NCBI GenBank assembly: GCA_020435995.1
Contig: JAGQYO010000014.1
Span: 1 to 63,160, forward strand
Direction: 5' to 3'
Length of the DNA: 63,160 bases
Origin: Flavobacteriales bacterium
Lineage (GTDB): Bacteria; Bacteroidota; Bacteroidia; Flavobacteriales_G; Salibacteraceae
A program made the position numbers and the translations under genes. This document shows, piece after piece, positions 19,407-62,673 of the stretch (position 1 is its first letter; each line of letters starts with the position of its first letter). A model generated the notes under the pieces. It had not been told where the DNA came from. It made no database searches and saw only the letters and a program-made list of their open reading frames with translations.

Positions 19407-21062
19407 TTACTCAGGTCTTGTACCATAAATCCAGAGGTTTCCATTGATGTACTTCTTAATACCAATTTCGTTGAGCCTTTTCATTTCTTCTTGGGCTTCT
19501 GCATTAGTTTTTACCTCTTTGGAAACCACGAAAAAGAACCTGCGATCGGAACGTGAAACTACCCTTGTATCGAGATTCATTTCGCGCTTTAATATTTTTT
19601 GCAAAAGCTTTGCGTCGTCTATTCCAAAATAAGCTCCGGTAACTACATAAAATTTATCAAGTGTAGGATCCGTATTGTTGGGGTCAGTGATTACAGCTCC
19701 CGATTTCAGCACTTCTATTTCATTTTCAAGTTTTGATAGTTTCGACTCCAGTTCGGAATTAGAAGAAGCGCTTTTTGCGGCCTTCAATTCTTCAACTTGC
19801 TTTTCAAGTTCTTTTATTTGGTTTTTTACCTCTGCCATCTCCGCACTTGAGGGTTGCTTTCCTACAGCACCCGCAGCACCCGCAGCACCCGCTGCTGCGT
19901 TGGTGTTATTGTTCTCAGATTTGGCGTTGTTTTTTTCGGAGTTGCTTTTCCTACCTGATTCATTGGGAATTGATTCCACCTTGTTTTCATCAATCACCTT
20001 TTTCATTTCGGCTTCATCTCGTTGCTCAACATCTTTGAGTTTTTCAATTTCCTCTTTTTGAGTGTTTAGCTGAGCGCGTAGGTCTTCGTTATCCGCTTTT
20101 AAGTCCCTAATCTCGTTGGCCTGCTTCCGCAAAATGCGTTTGGTTTCAGGGTCGCTTCCGCCGCTTCCGCCTTTGCCAAACCGATAGGAAAGCAACACTT
20201 CATGCGACCCGGTATTGTAGGCCTGGATGTCGTTAAGGGAATAGTCATAAGAATAACCAAAAGTAAGCTGCTCGGCGACCTCAATACCAGCTAAGAAAAT
20301 AAGTCCAAACCCTTGACGGTAGCCTGCTCCAGCCCAAAGCATTTTTTTCCACTTAGCTATTGCAGTCCCTTCAAAATTGATGTTAGCTCCTTGAAAACTG
20401 CGCATCACCACGGATGGTTTAACTGCCCAGTCTTCGTTTTTAAACTGGTAGTTATAGGCGGTGTTTAAGGTAAATTGGCGAACACTTTGAAAAGTAGTGC
20501 TGTTACCAGAGATATCGTCCGAAAATTCAAATTTGTTATTTAGCATTTGGTCGATAGAAAATCCGGCCTCAAGCGCTTTCCAAGTGTACCAAGCACCAAA
20601 TCCCGCATCGAACACACTACCTGTAACGTCACGTTGAAACAAGGCAGGATCTTCAAAGTCGGCATTTTCAATGGCCGAATAATTAATTCTACGTTGCATA
20701 AACCCTCCGTTTAAACCAAAACCCAATCGGTGGTCTTCGTTGAGGTCAAAGGTATATCGGTAGGTGAGCTTGCCCGTGTTGTTGACCAATATATGTGATT
20801 GATCGTTTTGGAACTGAAACCCCAGCCCCACCTTGTTGTTATTCAATGGGGTTTCGAAGGTAATAGCGAATGTTTTTGGAGAATTAGCAAAACCCATCCA
20901 TTGGTTTCGGTAATGAAGAAAAAACCTTGTGTCGCCTTGCATACCAGCCGCTGCGGGGTTAATAATATATGGATTGAGCATGTATTGACTAAATGTAGGC
21001 AACTGCTGGGCTTGAGATAAGCCTGTGATTAAAACCAAAACCAGTGTAATATACTTTTTCAT
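19407..21062 (-). CDS. PorP/SprF-family outer-membrane protein fused to coiled coil and SPOR-like domain
   Basis: Residues 1-18 are a signal peptide. Residues ~20-300 are a PorP/SprF-type barrel: QLPTFSQYMLNPYIINPAAA, then FFLHYRNQWMGFANSP and FGYSYDYSLNDIQ. In the family these proteins bind periplasmic PorE/SprE-type partners and help secrete or anchor surface proteins with CHU_C ends. After the barrel comes a long charged coiled coil (~305-360 and 410-450), interrupted by an Asn-rich, Ala/Gly linker (AAAGAAGAAGAVG). It ends in a SPOR-like domain (FYVVTGAYFGIDDAKLLQK to the end), which in other proteins binds denuded peptidoglycan. Standard family members stop after the barrel, near 300 residues. 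It is the last gene of the nine-gene run, 10 bp after the CHU_C protein, matching the usual pairing of CHU_C cargo with PorP/SprF. Confidence 0.88.
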   Translation of the reverse strand: MKKYITLVLVLITGLSQAQQLPTFSQYMLNPYIINPAAAGMQGDTRFFLHYRNQWMGFANSPKTFAITFETPLNNNKVGLGFQFQNDQSHILVNNTGKLTYRYTFDLNEDHRLGFGLNGGFMQRRINYSAIENADFEDPALFQRDVTGSVFDAGFGAWYTWKALEAGFSIDQMLNNKFEFSDDISGNSTTFQSVRQFTLNTAYNYQFKNEDWAVKPSVVMRSFQGANINFEGTAIAKWKKMLWAGAGYRQGFGLIFLAGIEVAEQLTFGYSYDYSLNDIQAYNTGSHEVLLSYRFGKGGSGGSDPETKRILRKQANEIRDLKADNEDLRAQLNTQKEEIEKLKDVEQRDEAEMKKVIDENKVESIPNESGRKSNSEKNNAKSENNNTNAAAGAAGAAGAVGKQPSSAEMAEVKNQIKELEKQVEELKAAKSASSNSELESKLSKLENEIEVLKSGAVITDPNNTDPTLDKFYVVTGAYFGIDDAKLLQKILKREMNLDTRVVSRSDRRFFFVVSKEVKTNAEAQEEMKRLNEIGIKKYINGNLWIYGTRPE

Positions 21063-58339: not shown

Positions 58340-59005
58340 CTATTCTTTTCCGGCCAAACAAATCACAAATTCGCCCTTTATAGCATGATTTTCGAAATGC
58401 TTTTTGATATCCGAAACCCCACCTCTTCTTGTTTCTTCAAACATTTTGGTTAATTCTCTCGATACAGAAATTTGTCGTTCTGGGCCCACAAATTTTTCTG
58501 CTTCTTCCAAAAACTTAATCAAACGATAGGGCGATTCATAAAAAACCATAGTTCGAGTTTCTTCCATTAACCCTTCCCATCGCTTTTGACGGCCTTTTTT
58601 GTGAGGTAGAAACCCTTCAAATACAAAGCGATCGCATGGCAATCCACTATTTACCAATGCAGGTACAAAAGCGGTCGCGCCTGGCAATGATTGAACATCA
58701 ACCCCTTTGGCAATGCACTCACGAACAATCAGAAAACCAGGATCCGAAATTCCGGGAGTTCCCGCATCGCTCACCAAAGCCAAATTTTCACCAGATTCCA
58801 AACGTTCAATAACTCGATCTAGCGATTTGTGTTCGTTGTGTTGGTGGAATGAAATCAAAGGTTTTTCTATTCCAAAATGCCTGAGTAATTTGAGCGTTTG
58901 ACGCGTGTCTTCAGCCATTATTGCATCCACTTCTTTCAACAAGCGAAGGCTTCGAAGGGTAATATCTTCGAGATTGCCAATGGGAGTAGGGATGAGGTAA
59001 AGCAA
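58340..59005 (-). CDS. rsmI: 16S rRNA (cytidine(1402)-2'-O)-methyltransferase RsmI
   Basis: RsmI places the 2'-O-methyl group on C1402 of 16S rRNA using S-adenosylmethionine, tuning decoding in the ribosomal P site. The 221-residue protein shows the tetrapyrrole-methylase fold signatures: YLIPTPIGNLEDITLRSL, ADAI-type AIMAEDTRQTLKLL, FHQHNEH, LALVSDAGTPGISDPGF, SLPGATAFVPALVNSGLP, FEGFLPHKKGRQ and MVFYESPYRL. Length fits the short form without the C-terminal extension. It begins 3 bp after the SBBP/SprB-repeat T9SS gene, so a housekeeping gene appears to share a transcript with two secreted-protein genes. Confidence 0.96.
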   Translation of the reverse strand: MLYLIPTPIGNLEDITLRSLRLLKEVDAIMAEDTRQTLKLLRHFGIEKPLISFHQHNEHKSLDRVIERLESGENLALVSDAGTPGISDPGFLIVRECIAKGVDVQSLPGATAFVPALVNSGLPCDRFVFEGFLPHKKGRQKRWEGLMEETRTMVFYESPYRLIKFLEEAEKFVGPERQISVSRELTKMFEETRRGGVSDIKKHFENHAIKGEFVICLAGKE

Positions 59006-59008
59006 ATG

Positions 59009-61435
59009 CTAATGTTTGACAACAAACTTATAATAAGCTCGCATTTCGCCATTAGAAATCTGAAGGTAATAATTGCCTGAAGGTAATATCGAAGTTGATA
59101 CCACCACCGAGTTTTCACTTTCGATAAATTGAGTATGAACCACTTGCCCAAGTACGTCTGTTATTTTAATGGTTCCACTCAGGGCTTCATTTCCAAAATG
59201 GAGGGTAATAAAATCATGTGCAGGGTTGGGGTAGAGTTTTATTTGAGTTGATTTTAATAAAAACGGTACTCCAAGGTGCAAATCTGCAATGACAAATTCT
59301 GTAGATTTAACACAACCGTTATGATCTGTTACTGTGAATCCATAACTGCCAGCTGCTAAGTTAGTGGTGTTATCAGATAGCCCTCCTGAGGTCCAATTAT
59401 AGGAATACGGACTTATGCCGCCAGAAACGGTCGACGATGCTTTTCCGTCTTTAGCTCCTTGTCTTGATTCATTAGTTAAGCTTAAGTGAATCGAAAGAGA
59501 ATCGGGCTGACCAACTATGTAATTAAGACTTTTGATACAATTGTGTTTATCTGTGATGGTAACCGAATAATTGCCCGAAGCCAACATTTTAATACTATCT
59601 GAATTGGCGTTAGTATTCCATTGCAGTGTGTAAGGTGCGGTACCACCACTGTATGTGCTAACGAGGGTAGCCGTGCTATCTCCATAACACATAACAGAAT
59701 CCACTTCTTGAACTGAAAGCGAAATCGGCAAGGGTTGAGATAATTGAATACTATCAGCATAAACACAGCCCAACGAATCAGTAAGGGTAACTGCATACTT
59801 GCCGGCGGCAAGTCCAAAGATGGAGTCCTTGGTATCTTGGTTATTCCAATAATAATTGTAGTTAATCAAAGAAGCTTTTTGGTTCACCTTGATAGTTCCA
59901 TTATTAGAATTGAAACAAAGCGGGTCGGTTTTATTAAGGTTAATTGCTGGATTGTAAAAGCTACATGGCTCGTGAAGAAAGCGGGCTATAAAACCATCGT
60001 AATCTCCATTATTGAATTGCTGATGAATGCCTACTGTTCCATTGCCACTGGACTCAGTATATCCTCCTATACTCAGAAAGGGAGCATCATAAGAACAAAA
60101 ATTTCCCCAATCGCGACTCCCACCACCATAGTAACTCTGCATTTGCAAATTGAAATCCTGATCGATTATACATAAATACACATCCTCATTGCCATTATTT
60201 ACGGAGTCTATTGGATGAATAACCTTTAAATCTGTGGAGCCAGTATTGCCCACTAACGCAAAAGATGAATCGTTAAGCTGGGAAATATGACTAAAAGCGT
60301 CCCTATCACTTCCGCCCAAGAAACGGCCTCTTAACTTATTGCCGGAATAATCGAAGGAAACAATAAATCCATCTGAAGCACCTTTCAGAGTGTCACCGGC
60401 AAAATGACCACTAGAAATGAGGGTGTCATTTTCTGTATTTCCCACTACATAGAAGACTGAATCTATAGGCAAAATGGACGAGATGGTTCCTGAAAAGTAA
60501 GTTCCCCATAAACGCTGCCCCGTTTTATTAAAAGCTACAATAAAAGTATTTTGAGAAGTGAAAGAATTAGGTGGTTTCTTTTGAAGAAATGTACCAGACG
60601 TAACTATTCCCGTATCAGACTCTGTACGCCCAGAAACCAAAACAAGACTATCATGTAATGCAATCCGAAGTCCAACATCTTCGGCGTCTCCCCCTAAGTA
60701 GGTGCCGAAAAGTTTATTTCCAGTAGAATCAAACGCCATTAAAAAGGCGTCATTCGGACCCTGGTTTTGTTTTCTAACCAATGTGGTTTGATGTGCTCCG
60801 GAAGTGGCAATAGCTGTATCGCTACTTGTAACACCCACTACAAATATATTTCCAGCCTCATCAAGTGCAATTTCGCCAACATGCTCTCCCGAATAAGGTA
60901 AACCTCCTAAATAGGTACTCCAAATAGGGCTTCCCGCAGTATCCAACCTGAGTAGGTACATGCCTCCTCCTTGCTTGTAAGGTTTGTGGGTGTTGGTTCC
61001 GAATGAAATGCTATCAGCCGCATATTCTCCTGCCACATATAAACTATTGGTTACCGTATCGAATGCAATAGACCTGGGAACAAATGGAAATGTACTTTTC
61101 AAAAAAGTAGTATAGGTACCCCAAATGAATTGTTTTCCATCTGAACTGAATTTTGCAATAAAATGATTCCCCTTGTTACTTAAAGCAGAAGTATTGTTTG
61201 GTTGTATGCTGCCTTGGGTAGATATTCCAGATACCGAATTGGTTCCGCCTATAACGTAATATTGACCTAAGGGATCTTGAACAATTTTACCTACGTTCTC
61301 TCTTCCCGCCCCCCCAACATAGGTATGAAAATTTTTAATAAATGATGACTGGGCGATGCTTAGCTGTGATAAAAAAAATAAAACTATGACAGCTATCAAG
61401 CCGTCATAGTTTTTTATTTTGAATACACTTTTCAT
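59009..61435 (-). CDS. Secreted SBBP beta-propeller and SprB-repeat protein with T9SS tail
   Basis: The 808-residue protein has a signal peptide (~1-28, ending IAQ). It then has seven or so blades with the SBBP-type pattern (TYVGGAGRENVGKIVQDPLG, YYVIGGT; STYLGGLPYSGEHVGEIALD, GNIFVVGVTSS), forming a beta-propeller over about 30-490. Three SprB-like repeats follow (~505-725): CFNSNNGTIKV, YYWNNQDTK, GKYAVTLTDSLGC and close copies with GGTAPYTLQW and GGISPYSYNW. The C-terminus is a type A sorting tail (IKLYPNPAHDFITLHF, LPSGNYYLQI). SprB repeats occur in the gliding adhesin SprB, so adhesion is plausible. It begins one base after the small secreted-protein gene (TAAAATG). Confidence 0.9.
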   Translation of the reverse strand: MKSVFKIKNYDGLIAVIVLFFLSQLSIAQSSFIKNFHTYVGGAGRENVGKIVQDPLGQYYVIGGTNSVSGISTQGSIQPNNTSALSNKGNHFIAKFSSDGKQFIWGTYTTFLKSTFPFVPRSIAFDTVTNSLYVAGEYAADSISFGTNTHKPYKQGGGMYLLRLDTAGSPIWSTYLGGLPYSGEHVGEIALDEAGNIFVVGVTSSDTAIATSGAHQTTLVRKQNQGPNDAFLMAFDSTGNKLFGTYLGGDAEDVGLRIALHDSLVLVSGRTESDTGIVTSGTFLQKKPPNSFTSQNTFIVAFNKTGQRLWGTYFSGTISSILPIDSVFYVVGNTENDTLISSGHFAGDTLKGASDGFIVSFDYSGNKLRGRFLGGSDRDAFSHISQLNDSSFALVGNTGSTDLKVIHPIDSVNNGNEDVYLCIIDQDFNLQMQSYYGGGSRDWGNFCSYDAPFLSIGGYTESSGNGTVGIHQQFNNGDYDGFIARFLHEPCSFYNPAINLNKTDPLCFNSNNGTIKVNQKASLINYNYYWNNQDTKDSIFGLAAGKYAVTLTDSLGCVYADSIQLSQPLPISLSVQEVDSVMCYGDSTATLVSTYSGGTAPYTLQWNTNANSDSIKMLASGNYSVTITDKHNCIKSLNYIVGQPDSLSIHLSLTNESRQGAKDGKASSTVSGGISPYSYNWTSGGLSDNTTNLAAGSYGFTVTDHNGCVKSTEFVIADLHLGVPFLLKSTQIKLYPNPAHDFITLHFGNEALSGTIKITDVLGQVVHTQFIESENSVVVSTSILPSGNYYLQISNGEMRAYYKFVVKH

Positions 61436-61436
61436 T

Positions 61437-61889
61437 TTAATAATCCTCGATGGTCAATATTCCTTTAAGACAAAGATCAGTAACGCCACATTGGCCATAA
61501 TTTGCAAACCAATCAGGATTGCCGGCACACGACGTAATAACACCTGTGTTTCGGTTGCCAATATCCATCGTAAACACTGGTCCACATGGTGTTCCACCAT
61601 TTAATTCTTGAAAAGCTATTTGGGTAATGTTTTGGTATGAACCTCCGCTGTAAGTCCAATTTTCGCAACCACTAGAACCTACTTTTTTGTAAAAAGTTAA
61701 ACCAGTTGCTGCGCATGAACCCGCATCTATTGTAGACTCATAAAGCCAATATTGAAACGTAGACGAGGATAGGTTGTCAATATAATATCCTGGCACGATA
61801 TCATGCGGTGGGTATGGATCATGGCATGCATCACATGGAATTTGAGCTTTCAGATCGTGGCCAATTAAAAAACTGCAAATCGCAAGCAT
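61437..61889 (-). CDS. Small Cys-rich secreted protein with repeat-controlled 5' end
   Basis: The frame from the ATG at 61889 gives 150 residues: a short hydrophobic stretch (MLAICSFLIGHDLKA, cleaved after AQ) and a mature part with about eight Cys (CDACHDPYPPHD, CAATGLTF, GCENWTY, CGPVFTMD, CAGNPDW, CGVTDLCLKG). I do not recognise the family. The signal lacks basic residues at this start. A better signal would begin at the ATG at 61987 (MKTLFSQ...), read through seven 8-base repeats, but with seven copies that frame stops after 30 residues; with six or nine copies it joins this protein. So expression or export may depend on repeat number. It is the first gene of the run leading to rsmI. Confidence 0.7.
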   Translation of the reverse strand: MLAICSFLIGHDLKAQIPCDACHDPYPPHDIVPGYYIDNLSSSTFQYWLYESTIDAGSCAATGLTFYKKVGSSGCENWTYSGGSYQNITQIAFQELNGGTPCGPVFTMDIGNRNTGVITSCAGNPDWFANYGQCGVTDLCLKGILTIEDY

Positions 61890-61912
61890 AGCGATTAGAA
61901 AATTATGAAATG

Positions 61913-61968
61913 GTGGCTTTGTGGCTTTGTGGCTTTGTGGCTTTGTGGCTTTGTGGCTTTGTGGCTTT
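61913..61968. repeat. Octanucleotide tandem repeat (GTGGCTTT) x7
   Basis: Seven perfect copies of GTGGCTTT occupy 56 bases just upstream of the small secreted-protein gene. On the coding (minus) strand they read AAAGCCAC and encode the eight-residue cycle SHKATKPQ without stops in any frame. Because 8 is not a multiple of 3, gain or loss of a unit shifts the frame between the ATG at 61987 and the gene body. Such tracts mutate by slipped-strand mispairing. Confidence 0.95.
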
Positions 61969-62107
61969 GTGAGAATAATGTTTTCATGACAAATAATTAA
62001 GTTAATAAAAATTTTCCTCCCAAATCTAAATAATAAATCGTTTAAATATCAAGTTGTTAAAAAAGTAGTTACCCTGCATTTGCGGAAACCGACGAGAATC
62101 ACGATAT

Positions 62108-62365
62108 TTGAAAAAACTTTGGAACGTGGCTACAGTAGATAACATTAGAAACTCTTTAATCAGCAAACTTTTGACTATTAGAGATAAAGACATTTTAAAT
62201 GCAATCGATAAACTAGTTTCAGTTTCTGCGAAGAACTCAAAGGTTGAACTTACTCCAGCTCAAATTGAAATGCTTGAAATGAGCGAAGAGGATATTAAAA
62301 ATGGAAATGTTATTTCTCAGGACGAACTTTTTGAACGTGAAAGAGAATGGCTGAGAAACGCGTAG
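62108..62365 (+). CDS. Antitoxin of a ParE/RelE-type toxin-antitoxin pair
   Basis: The frame gives 85 residues from a TTG at 62108, or 79 from a GTG at 62126 (MATVDNIRNSLISKLLTIRD), which fits the family better because related antitoxins start like M(A/T)xxxIRxSLxxKLL. The N-terminal half is helical; the C-terminal half (LTPAQIEMLEMSEEDIKNG, VISQDELFEREREWL) is acidic and likely wraps the toxin. The gene overlaps the toxin gene by 19 nt, the usual order of antitoxin first. Such pairs are normally autoregulated by the complex, so an operator probably lies just upstream, but none is evident. Confidence 0.8.
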   Translation: MKKLWNVATVDNIRNSLISKLLTIRDKDILNAIDKLVSVSAKNSKVELTPAQIEMLEMSEEDIKNGNVISQDELFEREREWLRNA

Positions 62366-62673
62366 TCTGGACTAGTAGAGCGACCAAGCAGCTTCGTTCA
62401 ATCTTGAAATACTGGCTTGAAAACAACCAATCTGATACATACTCCCAGAAACTTATTGATCGGATTGACATCAATACACAAGGAATTTTAAGAAACCCTA
62501 AACGTTGTCCAGAAACAATTTTCAAAAACACCAGAGTTTCTTCTCTTGGAAACTACAGTATCTTTTACAAGATTGAAAGCAATGGAATAATCATTACCGC
62601 ATTTTGGGACAATCGACAAGACCCTGAAAAACTGCGGGATTTTTTAAAGAAGAACGCAGGAGCTGCCAAATAG
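62347..62673 (+). CDS. ParE/RelE-superfamily toxin
   Basis: The 108-residue basic protein has the superfamily plan: VVWTSRATKQLRSILKYWLE (strand plus two helices), a middle helix DRIDINTQGILRNPKRC, then RVSSLGNYSIFYKIESNGII and a last strand ITAFWDNRQDPEKL. RelE members cut mRNA in the ribosome and ParE members block gyrase; the RQDPEKL end is seen in plasmid-stabilisation (ParE-like) relatives, but the target cannot be decided by eye. The ATG at 62347 overlaps the antitoxin end. It neighbours an insertion sequence and a GC-rich repeat, a typical accessory setting. Confidence 0.85.
   Translation: MAEKRVVWTSRATKQLRSILKYWLENNQSDTYSQKLIDRIDINTQGILRNPKRCPETIFKNTRVSSLGNYSIFYKIESNGIIITAFWDNRQDPEKLRDFLKKNAGAAK

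Follow-up and report, generated by a model that had tools for sequence, protein, structure and literature searches.

The window, a 63,160-nt stretch of contig JAGQYO010000014.1 from the draft genome of a Flavobacteriales bacterium (assembly GCA_020435995.1), contains a run of genes on the reverse strand that begins with a gene for a small secreted Cys-rich protein, at the 5′ end of which lies a tract of tandem octamers. The small gene is followed by a gene for a T9SS-type adhesin-like protein and by an rsmI-like gene. An earlier interpretation made from the letters of the DNA (hereafter the sequence-only reading) had named these two neighbors as a SprB-repeat adhesin-like gene and rsmI, in agreement with the Pfam domains found in both. 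The features of the locus are listed in Table 1. The adhesin-like protein carries a C-terminal sorting domain together with SprB repeats, the combination expected of a T9SS cargo protein of this kind, and its adhesive function is predicted from these domains. A divergent pair of genes at 62108–62673, beside the run, encodes an 85-aa protein without a Pfam match and then a ParE-type toxin (PF05016), and the two probably form a toxin-antitoxin module.

Table 1. Features of the locus, in the direction of transcription
Feature	Position	Strand	Basis or remark
Predicted Bacteroidota sigma-A promoter, TTG-N21-TAGATTTG	62021–62052	−	Motif matched once on this strand within 61300–62300
Predicted start codon ATG (MKTLFSQ...)	61985–61987	−	Start-context score; 33 nt from −7 box
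30-aa ORF from ATG 61987 at seven copies (OFF frame)	61895–61987	−	
Octamer tract, (CACAAAGC)7.4 on the coding strand	61913–61971	−	Perfect; no stop in any frame
Body of secreted Cys-rich protein; stop TAA 61439–61437	61437–61912	−	Open frame, codon usage, homologue
Signal peptide h-region of the small protein	61863–61901	−	
Short hairpin AATCGCTATGCTTGCGATT, loop holding the alternative ATG 61889	61878–61896	−	
Junction TAA-A-ATG, small-gene stop and adhesin start 1 nt apart	61433–61439	−	Sequence
Terminator-like hairpin, 15-bp stem, 4-nt loop, then ATTTTTTTTA	61370–61413	−	From adhesin codon 8
T9SS-type adhesin-like protein: SBBP beta-propeller repeat, three SprB matches, C-terminal sorting domain	59009–61435	−	Pfam, NCBIfam TIGR04183
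rsmI-like gene (TP_methylase), 3 nt past the adhesin stop	58340–59005	−	Pfam

Codon usage past the tract was typical of the genome in the body frame only, with a score of 0.27 per codon, versus −0.61 and −0.56 for the two remaining frames. An intact gene body was thereby found past the tract, as is expected of a simple-sequence contingency locus. The small protein showed no match to known families in Pfam or NCBIfam, and its predicted fold was unusable (pLDDT 42). Directly past its signal peptide, it contains a CxxCH motif (CDACH, 61821–61835). Among 42 genomes of the order and 395 genomes of the class, a relative was found solely in the MAG Flavobacteriales bacterium UBA6770 FRAM18_bin114 (G022), whose small protein was 31% identical and shared the cysteines, including those of the CDxCH motif (CDSCH in the homologue). 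With regard to a c-type cytochrome, a CxxCH motif in an exported protein was conserved in both homologues, without a family match. Two weak matches with E values near 0.006 were obtained in the genomes G019 and G002, and no homologues of the small protein were found in viral contigs or plasmids.

The tract at 61913–61971 reads as (GTGGCTTT)7.4 and consists of 59 nt, or 7.38 copies, with 100% matches; the sequence-only reading had placed a seven-copy octamer between ATG 61987 and the Cys-rich body, and this description was borne out. The longest self-match with a period of 4 to 15 in the window was 51 nt, while in 40 simulated sequences with the dinucleotide frequencies of the window it never exceeded 14. 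A perfect repeat far above chance, with a unit that is not a multiple of three, is a hallmark of contingency loci and is present here. The array occurred once across the 3.76-Mb genome. The expectation that the same octamer would mark other gene starts was therefore not borne out, and the genome has no family of octamer-tagged gene starts. A 31-nt version of the array was absent from 394 other sampled genomes of the phylum. The RNA structure of the tract was unremarkable (z +0.97), and a text search of the literature gave no match for either the octamer or the encoded peptide.

From ATG 61987, the assembled sequence is translated as MKTLFSQ followed by cycles of SHKATKPQ, giving MKTLFSQSHKATKPQSHKATKPQSHHFIIF* with a stop at 61897–61895. 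The SHKATKPQ cycle is the product of the octamer unit in all three frames. The length of the unit is not divisible by three, and none of its frames contains a stop, so that changes in tract length shift the frame without creating new stops. Counted from ATG 61987, the Cys-rich ORF ends after 551 nt. Both 551 − 8 and 551 + 16 are divisible by three, and the frame is thus restored with six or nine copies but not with seven or eight. This arithmetic reproduces the earlier proposal that the frame stops after 30 residues with seven copies and reaches the signal peptide with six or nine. Provided that the start is correctly predicted, the tract lies in the coding path and its copy number sets the frame, as in a contingency locus. 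The copy number is known from one assembly, a 207-contig draft, and copies in repeat tracts can be miscounted; the real genome might thus have six or nine copies, with the gene simply ON. Such an artefact is very improbable in our judgment, as the tract is perfect and, at 59 nt, would fit within reads of common length, and the frame-switch architecture would be unchanged even if the copies had been miscounted.

For a comparison of the start codons, a context matrix was derived from 359 starts that were unambiguous within 1.9 Mb of this genome. The context of ATG 61987 scored above 87.7% of these starts and 99.1% of all ATGs, while that of ATG 61889 scored above just 13.6% and 49%, respectively. 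In the frame of the mature protein upstream of the tract, ATG, GTG, and TTG were all absent as assembled, and only ATT codons were present. Initiation at ATG 61889, or reinitiation there after the 30-aa leader ORF, would reduce the tract to a leader spacer with, at most, a tuning effect on expression. ATG 61889 follows the leader stop (61895) at a distance of 5 nt, which permits reinitiation, and similar arrays are often located in gaps upstream of starts. However, ATG 61889 combines its poor context with a position in a hairpin loop. The signal-peptide core, FLIAMLAICSFLI, starts upstream of this codon, and a protein begun there would start inside its own hydrophobic core without the positively charged n-region, which arises only when the tract is translated. 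The best-context ATG of the G022 gene, which scored above 94.7% of true starts with the matrix from the window's genome, is likewise upstream of the repeat in that gene. On this evidence, we regard initiation or reinitiation at ATG 61889 as improbable.

Across 1.94 Mb of the genome, the 120-nt regions preceding ORFs contained the promoter motif at 6.7 times the density observed within ORFs. RNA synthesis from the predicted promoter would start near 62016, giving a 29-nt leader to ATG 61987. The flavobacterial promoter consensus is TTTG/TAnnTTTG, with the −7 box spanning −12 to −5 (PMC6847099, PMC9723704), and G is almost never used at the third position of this box, −10 (PMC6847099). The −7 box before ATG 61987 carries this disfavored G at −10.

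In G022, the gene order matches that of the window, with the small gene followed by an adhesin gene, and the adhesins are 44% identical. A promoter match, TTG-N19-TAAATTTG, is located upstream. Immediately past ATGAAAAAC, the small gene of G022 contains (CTTT)4.5, and as assembled its start is out of frame with the body; removal of one CTTT unit gives MKNLSFFLIIGASFNSKAQ, an ordinary signal peptide. Four CTTT units in tandem were confined to two places in the G022 genome, and tetramers with at least four copies were absent from 1.94 Mb of the window's genome. The second CTTT array of G022 (L180:1501–1532) is longer, with about 8 copies, and covers the 3′ part of a short ORF, not a gene start. 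A repeat at the same position in orthologues is a further property of contingency loci, and it was observed here in one case, in which the (CTTT)4.5 tract is short for a phase-variable tract. The G022 frame would also be restored by a 1-nt change in an A5 run, and the G022 adhesin shows an apparent 1-nt frameshift. For these two reasons, the out-of-frame state in G022 could be due to error or decay, and the place at which the repeat occurs carries more weight as evidence than the frame does. The occurrence of different repeats at the same spot in two homologues suggests selection for a switch, not for a sequence.

A repeat census covering 1.94 of the 3.76 Mb (52%) of the window's genome revealed, as other long arrays, TAGGTTGGTTG ×6, ATTCAAC ×6.7, a 14-mer, GAAAGTT 4+4, and TTGAATG ×3.7. 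With the exception of GAAAGTT, the inspected arrays were located between genes or across a gene end; the ATTCAAC ×6.7 and TAGGTTGGTTG ×6 arrays, at L135:12414–12460 and L083:14075–14140, respectively, lie within intergenic gaps or at their margins. The GAAAGTT array (L121:5715–5784, contig C43) consists of two blocks of four units in the 5′ part of an ORF for a 1342-aa Peptidase_S74 protein. The blocks just precede the signal-peptide core of this protein and are in frame as assembled, and they represent a possible second frame switch. Within the window, a 9-nt repeat, CAGCACCCG ×3.1, is present at 19865–19892 and would preserve any reading frame. In a genome of the same class (G047, L018–L024), all seven looser CACAAAGN arrays were intergenic. 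A viral contig from IMG/VR (L179:3612–3650) contains four copies of CACAAAGC in a gap, closely followed by a GGAG stretch and an ATG.

These arrays bear on a different explanation of the tract, namely that a neutral array expanded within the 5′ end of the small gene, thereby breaking it and leaving a fresh pseudogene, with the adhesin expressed from its own start. The mostly intergenic 7-, 11-, and 14-mer arrays of the genome, the location of the G047 arrays, and the occurrence of the same octamer before an ATG in the viral-contig gap are all consistent with a neutral origin. So is the state of the small gene, both assembled copies of which (here and in G022) are OFF, as decay would also cause. 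On the other hand, the remaining ORF is intact and has native codon usage, the promoter and start context are preserved, and the homologue has a repeat of a different unit at the same place, both repeats being rare in their genomes. Because such arrays can arise without a switching role, a neutral array keeps some weight, although we consider it unlikely.

The best available explanation of the data is a simple-sequence contingency locus in which the reading frame is switched, and we consider it fairly probable. The proposal of phase variation, first made in the sequence-only reading, was supported by the start context, the position of the promoter, the lack of start codons upstream of the tract in the mature frame, and the independent repeat of the homologue. 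The uniqueness of the octamer in the genome, the mostly intergenic location of similar arrays, and the G in the −7 box count against a switch. In the switch proposed here, the copy number of the tract would change by slippage and expression would alternate between ON and OFF. Transcription would begin near 62016 and translation at ATG 61987, and the codons of the tract would lie between the start and the signal-peptide core, so that the copy number would set the frame in which ribosomes arrive at the core. Six or nine copies would bring the signal peptide into frame (ON), whereas seven or eight copies would lead to a stop about 30 codons in (OFF). The assembled seven-copy sequence would correspond to the OFF state.

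The terminator-like hairpin begins 22 nt into the adhesin gene, in its signal-peptide codons, and is followed by a T8 tail. Its stability was high (z −5.19), and no shuffled sequence was equally stable. In 1.67 Mb of ORF sequence, 11 terminator-like elements in sense orientation were found inside ORFs, and that of the adhesin had the longest T run; most of the 11 elements were near the 5′ end of the ORF, which may be caused by wrongly assigned starts. An unusually stable hairpin (z −5.20), without a T tail, was also present at the start of the G022 adhesin gene (within L028:6440–6560). The adhesin hairpin of the window is a possible attenuator, and the TAA-A-ATG junction probably allows translational coupling. 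The sequence-only reading had suggested that switching could affect the following genes by polarity. This suggestion gains physical support from the 1-nt distance between stop and start and from the hairpin just inside the adhesin gene, two features from which we infer that translation is coupled when the switch is ON and that transcription terminates when it is OFF. In the ON state, ribosomes that end the small gene at 61437 would pass to the adhesin ATG, 1 nt further on, and would hold the intragenic hairpin (61413–61380) open. In the OFF state, about 450 nt of untranslated RNA would precede the hairpin, and the adhesin, perhaps together with rsmI, would be down-regulated. Ahead of rsmI, a lone −7 box begins at 59030 (TAAGTTTG), and for this reason rsmI may escape the control. 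We tentatively propose, as a possibility that should be regarded as less probable than the frame switch itself, a two-step switch in which the frame of the tract determines translation of the small protein and this in turn determines transcription of the T9SS adhesin gene and of rsmI, the gene of an enzyme that modifies the ribosome, through coupling and an attenuator, with related species keeping the switch and exchanging the repeat unit.

A comparable polarity is reportedly known from siaD of Neisseria meningitidis, where, as Lavitola and colleagues are said to have described in 1999, an out-of-frame tract stops translation prematurely and exposes transcription termination in the operon, with effects on downstream genes. 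The siaD tract is said to be poly-C and the termination Rho-dependent. In contrast, the present locus has an octamer tract and a candidate hairpin of the intrinsic type inside the next gene. In the same phylum, invertible promoters of Bacteroides cause phase variation of surface genes by site-specific DNA inversion, whereas the repeat tract found here would change in copy number. Repeat-driven phase variation has been documented mainly in host-adapted pathogens, and a literature search gave no matching example of repeat-mediated phase variation from flavobacteria.

According to a study on Haemophilus influenzae, its penta-, hepta-, and octanucleotide tracts are likely mediators of phase variation, and a frame shift had occurred at a heptamer tract inside hmw1A (PMC2651432). 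The locus in the window resembles those of H. influenzae in that perfect short repeats with units not divisible by three are located in or near genes for surface structures (PMC2651432). The H. influenzae octamers described there are placed upstream of genes (at the hmw loci and between cmkB and pdxS), whereas the tract in the window is placed between the start codon and the signal peptide (PMC2651432). The present locus also differs in belonging to the Bacteroidota, in the single occurrence of its octamer array in the genome, and in that the variation of its copy number is deduced from the arrangement of the locus.

Owing to the hairpin inside the adhesin gene, control of the whole operon by one tract can be tested directly. 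If true, the proposed switch would control a type IX adhesin in one lineage of the Flavobacteriales and would extend slippage switches to a group from which no described example was found.
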